Origin: Mucilaginibacter empetricola
GTDB lineage: Bacteria > Bacteroidota > Bacteroidia > Sphingobacteriales > Sphingobacteriaceae
Direction: 5' to 3'
DNA length: 64,000 bases
Assembly: GCF_024808665.1 (NCBI RefSeq)
Contig: NZ_JANUBZ010000008.1
Span: 186,001-250,000 of the forward strand
Part shown: one piece after another, positions 33,935 through 36,844 of the stretch
Numbering within the stretch: position 1 is the first letter of the stretch
Layout: every line of letters starts with the position of its first letter
Notes under the pieces: model-generated
Told to the model about the DNA's origin: nothing
What the model saw: only the letters and a program-made list of their open reading frames with translations
The model's database searches: none
Position numbers and translations under genes: made by a program

Positions 33935-34783
33935 TTACAACGCATCGTAAAACAAAGCAGCCGCGCCCAATATGGCGGCATTGTCCAGTTCAGAGGTTTG
34001 TATTTTTAGGTGATCAACGCTTTTAGGGTAACCAAAGGTCTTAATGCGTTCCCACATGGTTTGTTCAAAATATTCAAATGCCGAAGCGACAGATCCGCCT
34101 AAAACAATCAATTCAGGATCATAGGTGTACATAATCAACTTTATTGTGTTGCCCATGTGTATACCTAATTCAGCATAAAGTTTCAATGCTTTCGTGTCGC
34201 CATTGCGGGCATTTTTAAATACAGTTTCTCCGTTTATTCCATGTACATTTTGAAAAAACGACCCGCTGCAATAAAACTCATAATTCTGGTCTAAATAATC
34301 TACCATCCCGAATTCACCGGCTCCGCAATTTGGGCCGGCATATAGCTTTTTATTAATAATAATTCCTGCGCCAAGTCCCGTTCCAATAGCCAAACCAACC
34401 ATACCGGCAGCATTTTTGCCTTTGCCAAAATAATGCTCGCCCAGGGCAAAACAATTGGCATCGTTATTTACAAACACCGGCAGCCGGTAACGCGCTTCTA
34501 ATATTTCTTTCAAATGCACTTCTTTCCACGATGGAATGTGCTGTACATCGTAAACAATCCCTTCATTTATGTCGACAATGCTGGGTACACCGATACCAAT
34601 CGCTTTAACATCGACAGCAATTAATTGATCGGTAATAAAAAACACGTCCTCCAAAACCTGTTCTTCTGTTCCGATTGAATGGATACGACGGGATATGATT
34701 TCTTTAATATTACCGTTGGTTACTATCGCCCCGCGTATATTGGTGGCACCCAGATCAATACCTATCAGTTTTTCGTTTTGCAT
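33935..34783 (-). CDS. ROK family sugar kinase (glucokinase-like)
   Basis: The 282-residue protein has the ROK ATPase layout: IGIDLGATNIRGAIV (phosphate-1 loop), VNNDANCFALGEHYFG with the catalytic Asp, LAIGTGLGAGIIINK, and PELIVLGGSVASA (adenosine site). The zinc-binding CxCGxxGC segment is absent; the region reads AGEFGMVDYLDQNYEFYCSG, so it belongs to the zinc-free branch. The likely reaction is phosphorylation of glucose or another hexose, which would feed the sugars released by the glycan locus at the right end of the window. No HTH domain, so it is an enzyme rather than a repressor. Confidence 0.9.
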   Translation of the reverse strand: MQNEKLIGIDLGATNIRGAIVTNGNIKEIISRRIHSIGTEEQVLEDVFFITDQLIAVDVKAIGIGVPSIVDINEGIVYDVQHIPSWKEVHLKEILEARYRLPVFVNNDANCFALGEHYFGKGKNAAGMVGLAIGTGLGAGIIINKKLYAGPNCGAGEFGMVDYLDQNYEFYCSGSFFQNVHGINGETVFKNARNGDTKALKLYAELGIHMGNTIKLIMYTYDPELIVLGGSVASAFEYFEQTMWERIKTFGYPKSVDHLKIQTSELDNAAILGAAALFYDAL

Positions 34784-35046
34784 GTGGATTTTTTTAGATT
34801 ATTGAATTTATATGCCGGCTTGCCATTTTATTAATACGGCTTATTTGATAAAAAATTAATAAGAAAGATTGTTTTTAAGAATTTTTAGATAGATGAAAAT
34901 GGGACTTTTTAAATGCTTTTGTTAATAATTATGATGTTAATAAGTGTGAAAAATGTCAGTATTTACAAGTAAACTAATTATAAATCAATATAGAATGGCT
35001 GTTGATAAAATGTTGAAAACCTGTCAATAAAAAATAAAAATAAAAC
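34784..35046. other. AT-rich intergenic stretch with no gene
   Basis: Left part of a 711-bp gene-free interval between the ROK gene and the PIN-PhoH gene. It is strongly AT-rich with short A and T runs; I see no ORF, no hairpin with a T run and no convincing box for the ROK gene. It leads directly into the promoter of the RNA candidate. Confidence 0.6.
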
Positions 35047-35077
35047 TTGACAAATATTGCTTCAGCACCTAACTTAG
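35047..35077 (+). promoter_or_regulatory. Promoter of the candidate RNA gene
   Basis: TTG (in TTGACA) at 35047-35049 and TAACTTAG at 35070-35077 are 20 bp apart, the Bacteroidota -33/-7 spacing. Transcription would begin near 35083. The TTGACA form is common at strong stable-RNA promoters of this phylum (recalled). Confidence 0.65.
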
Positions 35078-35082
35078 AAATA

Positions 35083-35424
35083 TCAAGAACGACGTACTTT
35101 GACAACCTTACAGGATTACAGAATTGAATCGGGCGAACCTTCGGGGGAGCTAAAGATCACGGAAGTGCCTGAGTTATACGGAAAATAAAAGGCGAGAGCT
35201 TTAGAAAAGAAAGATAATTAAAGGGGTATTAGAAAAGGATTACAATTTTTTACGGAGAAGAGTAAAAACCACTAATGTACTGAAAGAATCAATGTTTGCA
35301 AGAACAACAGAATAGCAGTCGGTCAGCTTACACAAAACTTGGTGCTTTTTGAGTAACTACGGTTAAGCAAAGAGTCAGAAAACGGAAGTCAAATCGAAAG
35401 AAGAGGCTTCCGTTTTCGTTTTTT
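35083..35424 (+). ncRNA. Candidate structured non-coding RNA, ~340 nt, family not recognised
   Basis: The interval between a good promoter and a strong terminator has no ORF of note: the longest ATG frame is 7 codons. Its base composition differs from the AT-rich DNA to the left, with GC-rich islands (GGGCGAACCTTCGGGGGAG near 35131-35149). Local pairings include CTAAAG (35150-35155) with CTTTAG (35199-35204) and GCTTA (35326-35330) with TAAGC (35364-35368). It has none of the conserved elements I know for RNase P RNA, tmRNA, SRP RNA or 6S RNA. Alternatively it could be a leader that attenuates the PIN-PhoH gene 70 bp downstream, but that gene has its own box. The exact ends are inferred. Confidence 0.55.
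35378..35424 (+). terminator. Strong terminator of the candidate RNA
   Basis: A perfect 11-bp stem (GAAAACGGAAG / CTTCCGTTTTC) with an 18-nt loop is followed by G and six T residues. Confidence 0.85.
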
Positions 35425-35479
35425 ACGGCTTTTTTATGATAAGCGCTGTTTTTCATTTTTCCTACCGCCGTAAAATATC

Positions 35480-35487
35480 TAATTTAG
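35480..35487 (+). promoter_or_regulatory. Putative -7 box TAATTTAG for the PIN-PhoH gene
   Basis: A TAnnTTAG match ending 7 bp before the ATG at 35495 and lying after the RNA terminator. If used, the mRNA is almost leaderless. Confidence 0.4.
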
Positions 35488-35494
35488 CCATAAC

Positions 35495-36844
35495 ATGAGT
35501 AAGGACGGCAAAAGCAAGACCAACGGAAGACCCAAAATATTTGTTTTAGATACTTCAGTGATCTTATACGATCACAACGCTTTCGAAAACTTTCAGGAAC
35601 ATGATGTAGCTATACCGATACAGGTACTAGAAGAGCTCGATAATATGAAAAGTGGCAACGATACCCGCAACTTTGAAGCCCGAAGCTTTATCAGGTTGAT
35701 GGATGAATTATCGCATAACCGGCTTATTAACAAGTGGCAGCCTCTAAGCGGTAAAGACAAAGGGAATTTTAAGGTTATCATTGATACCAAAAATTTGGCT
35801 GCTGATGCTGAAGCCGTGTTCGGTTCTGCCAAAACTGATCACCGCATTTTAAATGCGGCGTTGGGTTTGCAGGAAGAACATCCTGATAAGAAAATAGTGC
35901 TGGTTTCAAAAGACATCTGTTTACGTTTAAAAGCCAAAGCCCTTAACCTGCATGCTGAAGATTACGAAACCGGCAAAATTAAAAACCTGGCCGAGCTTTA
36001 CACGGGTGAAACTACCTTAGGTAAAGTGTCCGAAAAACTCATTACGCAGCTTAATAAGGACGAAAGTGTAGATGCCGCTCAGTTTGAAATTCAACACACC
36101 AGCAATCATTTTTATATTTTAGATGGAAAAAAAGGGCAGCTGGCGGGTTTTTACAATTCAAAAACAGCACAGCTTGAAAAAATAACAGAGCAGCCGGTAT
36201 TTAACATCCATCCTAAAAATATTGAGCAATCTTTTGCCATCCATGCCTTATTGCATCCTGATATCAAGCTGATTACCATACAGGGTAATGCTGGTACCGG
36301 CAAAACCTTACTGGCACTTGCGGGGGCTTTAGAACAGCGTAAATATTTCAGGCAGATATTTGTTACCAGGCCCATTGTGCCATTGAGCAATAAAGACATT
36401 GGCTTTTTACCGGGCGATATTAAATCAAAAATAGACCCTTACATGGCCCCCATATGGGACAACCTGAAATTTATAAAAGACCAGTTTGCCGACGATGAAA
36501 AAATGCAAGCCAAAATTGATGAACTGGTAGTCAACGAAAAGATTTCCATTACACCACTGGCCTTCATTCGCGGCCGTACACTGAGCAAAATATTCTTTAT
36601 TGTGGACGAGGCTCAGAACCTGACACCGCACGAGGTTAAAACAATCATATCTAGAGCGGGCGAAGACAGTAAGTTTGTTTTTACCGGAGATATTTATCAA
36701 ATTGATACCCCATACCTGGATGCCGAAAGTAATGGCCTGAGTTATTTGATTGATAAAGCAAAAGGACATCCCCTTTACGCCCACATCACCCTGCAAAAAG
36801 GCGAGCGGAGCGAACTGGCTAACTTAGCAACGGAGTTATTATAA
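35495..36844 (+). CDS. PIN-PhoH protein (RNase-ATPase)
   Basis: The 449-residue protein joins an N-terminal PIN nuclease domain (KIFVLDTSVILYDHNAF with the first acidic residue, EELDNMK, and a third acidic site around TDHRIL) to a C-terminal PhoH ATPase (~240-449) with Walker A GNAGTGKTLLALA and Walker B IFFIVDEAQNLTP. PIN-PhoH proteins (VapC-PhoH in mycobacteria, YlaK in Bacillus) are sequence-specific RNA helicase/RNases. Whether the RNA encoded just upstream is a substrate is speculation. A small secreted-protein gene begins 6 bp after the stop. Confidence 0.93.
   Translation: MSKDGKSKTNGRPKIFVLDTSVILYDHNAFENFQEHDVAIPIQVLEELDNMKSGNDTRNFEARSFIRLMDELSHNRLINKWQPLSGKDKGNFKVIIDTKNLAADAEAVFGSAKTDHRILNAALGLQEEHPDKKIVLVSKDICLRLKAKALNLHAEDYETGKIKNLAELYTGETTLGKVSEKLITQLNKDESVDAAQFEIQHTSNHFYILDGKKGQLAGFYNSKTAQLEKITEQPVFNIHPKNIEQSFAIHALLHPDIKLITIQGNAGTGKTLLALAGALEQRKYFRQIFVTRPIVPLSNKDIGFLPGDIKSKIDPYMAPIWDNLKFIKDQFADDEKMQAKIDELVVNEKISITPLAFIRGRTLSKIFFIVDEAQNLTPHEVKTIISRAGEDSKFVFTGDIYQIDTPYLDAESNGLSYLIDKAKGHPLYAHITLQKGERSELANLATELL

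Follow-up and report, generated by a model that had tools for sequence, protein, structure and literature searches.

Results

An RNA gene between a ROK gene and phoH

The window analysed here is a stretch of 64,000 nucleotides from the genome of Mucilaginibacter empetricola, and the locus of interest lies on its plus strand between a ROK gene and phoH, which encodes a PIN-PhoH protein (35495-36844). Read from its letters, the interval 35047-35424 forms a transcription unit of its own, encoding an RNA of ~342 nt. It opens with a Bacteroidota-type promoter at 35047-35077, made up of TTG (35047-35049), a 20-bp spacer and TAACTTAG (35070-35077), and this promoter is conserved across the instances described below. 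The RNA gene itself was placed at 35083-35424, with its presumed start taken from the promoter and its presumed end from the terminator, and its conservation was followed by BLASTN and RNA models. The intrinsic terminator, P7 in the fold (35378-35424), consists of GAAAACGGAAG at 35378-35388, which can pair without mismatch over 11 bp with 35407-35417, an 18-nt loop holding a UCGAAAGA mini-hairpin, and a T run at 35419-35424. A generic terminator scan limited to loops of 3-8 returned a minus-strand site only. An earlier note on this DNA had pointed out the promoter, the perfect 11-bp terminator with its T run and the position just before the PIN-PhoH gene, and all three are present as it described them.

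The note had also stated that no ATG ORF exceeds 7 codons, and the longest one within the RNA gene does have 7 codons (at 35292); when GTG and TTG starts are allowed, the longest ORF reaches 29 aa. The 7-codon limit was counted as a noncoding sign, as were the one-base indels found inside conserved blocks across instances, and by these signs the locus is an RNA gene without a conserved reading frame. Single-sequence folding energy was unremarkable (z = -1.5, with 9 of 100 shuffles folding as well), so energy could not have established an RNA; conservation and covariation do, and we are nearly certain that this is a stand-alone conserved structured RNA.

Search for known RNA families

None of the 4227 families of Rfam 15 was matched at gathering threshold anywhere in the 64-kb window, and at E <= 10 nothing relevant was returned over 34780-35500: the two weak matches, both far below cut-offs, cover 34975-35024, before the promoter, and 35422-35494, which overlaps the last bases of the RNA. 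RNase P RNA (RF00010) and tmRNA (RF00023), which the earlier note had set aside, were rejected here as well, since the genome's copy of the former is found elsewhere (G000:C9:38541-38932, 250.4 bits), as is its match over the cut-off for the latter (G000:C4:231154-231522, 124.3 bits).

Distribution in Sphingobacteriaceae

BLASTN with 35047-35430 found matches at E <= 0.01 in 58 of 100 genomes, own genome included. Same-genus relatives accounted for most of them (55 of 60, one of which, G058, matched only at E 0.006), and two genomes of other families had chance-like matches at E 0.002-0.005. Broader searches were run with RNA models, among them R1, which describes the 5' block, and R3, whose training set spans several genera. 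R1 and R2 carry 4 base pairs each from RNAalifold, and are thus nearly sequence profiles, and R3 uses sequence only. R1 matched in 92 of 251 Sphingobacteriaceae genomes and R3 in 211 of 399, spread over 14 of 25 genera; nine of these genera have E-values below 1e-5, and the other five reach only 4e-4 to 0.009 in a search where ~4 chance matches are expected. The possibility that the locus is spurious for lack of conservation, raised by the earlier note, is thereby removed on that count.

Among Mucilaginibacter genomes, one per species, R3 found the RNA in 99 of 105, a count derived from the six listed non-matching same-genus rows, with the list order suggesting that there are no more. Those six (G002, G003, G032, G035, G205 and G237) have either lost the RNA or diverged strongly, and since they lack a detectable copy, the RNA is probably not essential. 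Most genomes carry one to three copies in the R3 search, and more than one copy was present at eleven loci of the non-redundant set. This set held 121 instances, or 120 once L112 had been removed as false, its 304 nt being an internal match. A degenerate pattern run over 84,980 species returned 99 stretches, and the 80 of them that were listed belong to Mucilaginibacter, Daejeonella oryzae and MAGs called Bacteroidetes or Sphingobacteriales bacterium.

Conservation is highest in the promoter, in the 5' block, which starts AUCAAGAACGACGUACUUUGACAGCC, and in a 3' block ending in the terminator, and the middle is variable. The 3' terminator block played no part in the R1 search, and all 23 remote R1 hits to the 5' block (19 loci) have a matching 3' block 269-619 nt downstream; 22 of the 23, in 18 loci, are outside the genus. 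These remote loci (L102-L121) were picked from the stronger R1 hits, with a few skipped and L120 left out. When the remote sequences were aligned with those of Mucilaginibacter, they had the YANG loop and terminator columns in common.

Outside Sphingobacteriaceae nothing convincing was found, and none of 19 weak loci has the 3' block downstream. In 198 genomes of the class, R1 gave out-of-family hits in 12 (E 0.0017-0.047), and in 395 genomes R3 gave partial out-of-family hits in 7, all under 20 bits and about twice the roughly 4 predicted by rough E-values. By eye, nine of the first twelve out-of-family hits look like coding sequence. One weak out-of-family hit, L426, has a 10-base core motif AACGANGTAC without the 3' block and is probably due to chance. 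The region upstream of phoH was inspected in other families as well: from a set of 29 loci (L138-L166) the scan sat on phoH in 24, after L142, L158, L163 and L165, where it took another ORF, and L154, which has no upstream DNA, were dropped, and the 5' motif was present in 0 of the 24, four of which, with longer gaps, were inspected by eye. Viral contigs contained no match to an exact 22-letter degenerate pattern of the RNA, and plasmids and phages were unmatched by BLASTN; a mobile origin was rejected on the lack of matches in these sets.

A conserved multi-branched fold

RNAalifold gave the same P1-P4, P6 and P7 for 38 Mucilaginibacter sequences and, separately, for 11 sequences from two other genera, the latter being 11 of the 23 remote sequences. 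Overall, a segment lying ~80 nt short of the 3' end joins the 5' end to form P1; this helix encloses P2-P5 and is followed by P6 and P7. The closing helix P1 (35081-35344) joins UAUCAAG at 35081-35087 with CUUGGUG at 35338-35344, and its outer pairs may precede the true start site; pair 9/274 in it passes the restricted covariation test (CG 68, UA 6). Between P1 and P2 the alignments show a near-invariant junction strand, J1/2, with AACGACGUACUU at 35088-35099, whose conservation between genera goes beyond the need of proven helices. P2 (35100-35325), drawn from the consensus fold and pair counts, joins UGAC at 35100-35103 with GUCA at 35322-35325. P3 (35106-35226) pairs CCUU at 35106-35109 with GGGG at 35223-35226, has GCCUG/CAGGC in other genera, and shows changes on both sides in 3 of its 4 pairs. 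The GC-rich P3a hairpin with its UUCG-type loop (35125-35159) is the Mucilaginibacter form, replaced by a different hairpin in other genera, and contains the strongest covarying pair, 64/71 (UA 39, CG 36). P4 (35228-35276) joins AUUAG at 35228-35232 with CUAAU at 35272-35276 below an apical hairpin UUUU-UACG-GAGA at 35247-35258. All four pairs of the P5 hairpin, GUUU-GCAA-GAAC at 35294-35305, changed on both sides, and P5 is drawn otherwise by RNAalifold from the other-genera set alone. The 3' strand of P1 is preceded by ACACAAAAC at 35330-35338, conserved mainly within the genus. Last before the terminator comes P6 (35354-35365), UAAC-UACG-GUUA, with a YANG-type loop whose second base is an invariant A throughout the 57 aligned rows and whose third base varies; this pattern suggests recognition rather than mere stability.

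Covariation supports this conserved multi-branched fold of the putative RNA. The all-pairs test was R-scape-like, its null letting each site evolve on its own along a FastTree tree, and took as input 79 of the 121 instances, those of 325-412 nt only. Four pairs were significant among all column pairs and all 4 fall in the fold, two of them in P4 and one in P6; of the 60 best-scoring pairs, 19 fall in the fold, where chance alone would place 0.08. In the restricted test on the same 79 sequences, 14 of 82 fold pairs pass. The smaller sets of 38 and 11 sequences gave zero significant pairs among all pairs, and in the restricted test 9/74 and 4/84 structure pairs, respectively. A pair counter applied to 14 diverse hand-chosen sequences found 92% of cells paired (85.6 shuffled, 34-50 when the structure was slid) and 57 cells changed on both sides (21.0 shuffled, 9-20 slid), where the comparison favours the structure over its slid versions because it was derived from sequences in the counted set. 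One of the five measures, the number of further pair types, was not above shuffles (43 vs 40.9, with 108 of 500 shuffles reaching 43). The earlier note had proposed looking for covarying pairs across Sphingobacteriaceae, and its description of a lineage-specific, stand-alone structured RNA outside the known families is borne out by this covariation, the family-limited conservation and the lack of an Rfam 15 match.

Length variants and recurrent loops

The shortest extracted RNA measures 329 nt and the longest 626 nt, counting a few flanking bases, and most often the RNA is ~340 nt long. In one instance (L066), RNA positions 167-375 are taken up by a tandem array of a 31-nt unit, 6.7 copies in all, and each copy could fold into a GNRA hairpin; in another (L109) a 158-nt domain inside the RNA is duplicated in tandem, with L112 similar by eye. 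Over the 120 homologous instances, YANG hairpins numbered 2.33 per RNA against 0.62 in shuffled sequences, GNRA hairpins 3.46 against 1.15, and a control loop 0.99 against 1.17; these counts come from homologous and hence not independent RNAs, in which stable tetraloops may be purely structural.

Relation to phoH

Proximity of phoH could be judged in 51 of the 120 instances, the 69 with short flanks being left out. In 42 of the 51, phoH follows on the RNA's own strand at no more than 2.5 kb, with a gap of 45-2216 nt; among the other nine, phoH is elsewhere in the fetched stretch in five and absent from it in four. Beyond the 42, 3 of the judged instances have phoH downstream at about 3-3.7 kb. 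The 19 remote loci have a FUSC-family gene and phoH in 13 cases, phoH only in 1, FUSC only in 3 and neither in 2. In the window the upstream neighbour is the ROK gene instead of a FUSC-family gene.

The phoH gene of the window, a conserved neighbour outside the RNA unit, has a promoter-like box of its own, TAATTTAG at 35480-35487, 7 bp before its ATG. The count of such boxes took in 93 of the 120 instances, which represent 87 distinct phoH upstream regions. A box stands at most 45 nt from the phoH start in 88 of the 93 instances (mononucleotide-shuffled mean 31) and in 82 of the 87 distinct regions, and in 68 of those 82 only 4-8 nt separate the last box from the aligned start, which would make the phoH mRNA nearly leaderless.

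Chromosomal position and upstream sites

Upstream of the promoter lies a conserved AT-rich region (34920-35030) with TGTTRATAA-type sites that resemble weak DnaA boxes: TGTTAATAA at 34920 and 34935, TGTTGATAA at 35000 and TGTCAATAA at 35022. This 111-bp stretch holds 4 of the 18 sites of this type in the window. At least one TGTTAATAA-type site is found in 95 of 120 homologous upstream regions, against a dinucleotide-shuffled mean of 6.8; with a looser pattern, just 11 of 121 regions reach 3 or more sites in a span of 120 bp.

In four single-contig genomes the distance of the RNA gene from the skew-defined origin amounts to 0.464-0.498 of the circle, and its distance from the terminus, likewise defined by skew, to 0.010-0.066, the fractions from the origin being 0.485 in G047, 0.464 and 0.486 in G033 (two copies), 0.498 in G011 and 0.484 in G013. 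These genomes were hand-picked, two of them for a differing RNA-to-dnaA distance, and are dependent because of shared synteny; GC skew was sampled every 2.5% of the genome in G047 and every 5% in G033, G011 and G013, and that of G011 is noisy. The dnaA gene is 0.07-0.28 from the skew-defined origin in the same four (loci L316-L415). At the contig start of G047 (L316:100-480) an intergenic stretch contains dense DnaA boxes, TGTGGATAA, TGTGAATAA and TTATTAACA, followed by a gene that is presumably nadA, and this stretch is probably oriC, away from dnaA. In the window itself, GC skew drops to about zero past the RNA, without a lasting sign change.

Discussion

Our results point to a lineage-specific, independently transcribed, trans-acting, protein-binding scaffold RNA of Sphingobacteriaceae, a reading to which we give a probability of roughly 0.55. 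The RNA is probably a stand-alone scaffold or regulator rather than a switch for the adjacent phoH. It would be transcribed and fold into a stable particle, could bind one or more proteins via J1/2 and the YANG and GNRA hairpins, and might then act as a scaffold or a titrating sponge, in a mode like that of OLE, 6S or CsrB without membership in those families. Recurrent loop motifs, growth of the arms and multiple copies fit a multivalent protein-binding scaffold or sponge, and for this mechanism taken by itself we see the chances as about even.

A different relation to phoH had been offered in the earlier note, which allowed for a regulatory leader of PIN-PhoH. The same-strand phoH within 2.5 kb downstream in 42 of the 51 judged instances would suit a cis-regulatory leader or attenuator, but a perfect and conserved terminator intervenes, and of 87 distinct phoH genes 82 have the promoter-like box, which in 68 of them stands so close to the start (4-8 nt) that phoH has almost no leader. 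The RNA-phoH gap is also variable (45-2216 nt), tandem RNA copies exist, and phoH is missing from the stretch in 4 of 51 instances and unmatched at 5 of the 19 remote loci, so that this part of the note did not hold: the leader appears largely refuted and we regard it as extremely improbable. Action in trans could also take the form of base pairing, with J1/2 (AACGACGUACUUUGACAG) as an antisense seed for mRNAs, and the conservation of this 5' strand between genera, outside any proven helix, speaks for such a seed. However, in 2 Mb of Mucilaginibacter DNA only 2 of 13 J1/2 12-mers occur, once each on either strand (mean 0.15 vs 0.21 permuted), and the 15 10-mers have a mean of 2.5 vs 3.9 permuted, with three above 3.9 and the highest at 8 (permuted maximum 21); these counts cover parts of four genomes, in which a few specific targets would escape. 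The lack of an excess of complementary matches leans against a broad antisense regulator, and a base-pairing role seems unlikely to us.

The near-invariant junction and ornate fold might equally belong to a ribozyme or a metabolite-sensing RNA, but no catalytic or riboswitch family of Rfam matches and the RNA's own terminator is the sole downstream expression platform, which makes such an activity rather improbable. 6S RNA has an architecture of its own, rod-like and with a central bubble resembling an open promoter, and the consensus fold found here is multi-branched instead. A divergent 6S RNA of Sphingobacteriaceae would account for the lack of any match to RF00013 and RF01685 in this genome at E <= 1, although both models are silent in a Bacteroides control genome too, so their silence here says little; B. 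thetaiotaomicron is described as carrying a 6S RNA with pRNAs (PMC7366714). Given its fold, we find it scarcely credible that this RNA is a 6S RNA. A tie to chromosome replication, in which synthesis from a gene near the terminus with DnaA-box-like sites could follow DnaA or fork passage, draws on the near-antipodal position of the RNA to the skew origin in the 4 genomes sampled and on the TGTTAATAA-type sites that most upstream regions contain (95 of 120). Against it, the sites are unlike the TGTGGATAA-type boxes that dominate the G047 origin, which also holds one TTATTAACA, and they could be UP-like sequence belonging to the promoter; only 11 of 121 regions have a cluster of three or more, the four genomes are dependent through synteny, and the window has no lasting skew sign change at the RNA. 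We consider this tie a long shot, and are just as doubtful of its most elaborate form, a new, ornate and expandable class of scaffold RNAs at the replication terminus that would lengthen their arms through tandemly duplicated tetraloop hairpins and have their promoter read by a DnaA-like factor, linking replication to an RNA-based particle.

Returning to the protein-binding scaffold, the interest of the locus lies in an RNA of ~330-625 nt with a covariation-supported ornate fold that is carried by 99 of the 105 Mucilaginibacter species sampled and unmatched in Rfam 15. Large RNAs this complex are few, and the known ones, OLE, ROOL, GOLLD, 6S and RNase P, have given insight into core physiology or into how RNA is built. 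The RNA is present in named cultured strains, and genomes mostly have one to three copies, which makes it directly open to experiment, and the size series of minimal core, hairpin array and duplicated domain amounts to a natural experiment in the growth of structured RNAs.

Among known systems, sponges of the CsrB/RsmY type have repeated hairpins, recurrent loop motifs and a variable repeat number, and all of these are shared with the RNA described here. Its loops, in contrast, are YANG tetraloops and GNRA hairpins, and CsrA (PF02599) has no match in this genome at E <= 1, so a CsrA sponge was rejected. OLE, ROOL and GOLLD are, like this RNA, long or large, multi-branched, ornate and conserved bacterial RNAs, and their functions are described as poorly understood, with GOLLD and ROOL tied to phages and prophages (PMC12286853). 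The present RNA differs from the three in having no Rfam match and in being usually shorter (~340 nt), and from GOLLD and ROOL in lying on chromosomes of one family; the sets of phages, plasmids and viral contigs that were searched contain no match to it. Pedo-repair, in Pedobacter, and 6S-flavo are Bacteroidota RNA motifs described from comparative genomics (PMC2864571), and as Rfam families they are unmatched by this RNA. No description of the RNA was found in the open-licence literature searched, larger motif surveys aside. Paralogous sRNAs of Bacteroides, described as bound by RbpB (PMC11697453), are likewise Bacteroidota noncoding RNAs with paralogues and in addition have a protein partner; they belong to another bacterial order, and the likeness is one of description only. 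Placed beside these systems, the RNA would count among the large structured trans-encoded RNAs, a known kind, as a new family.
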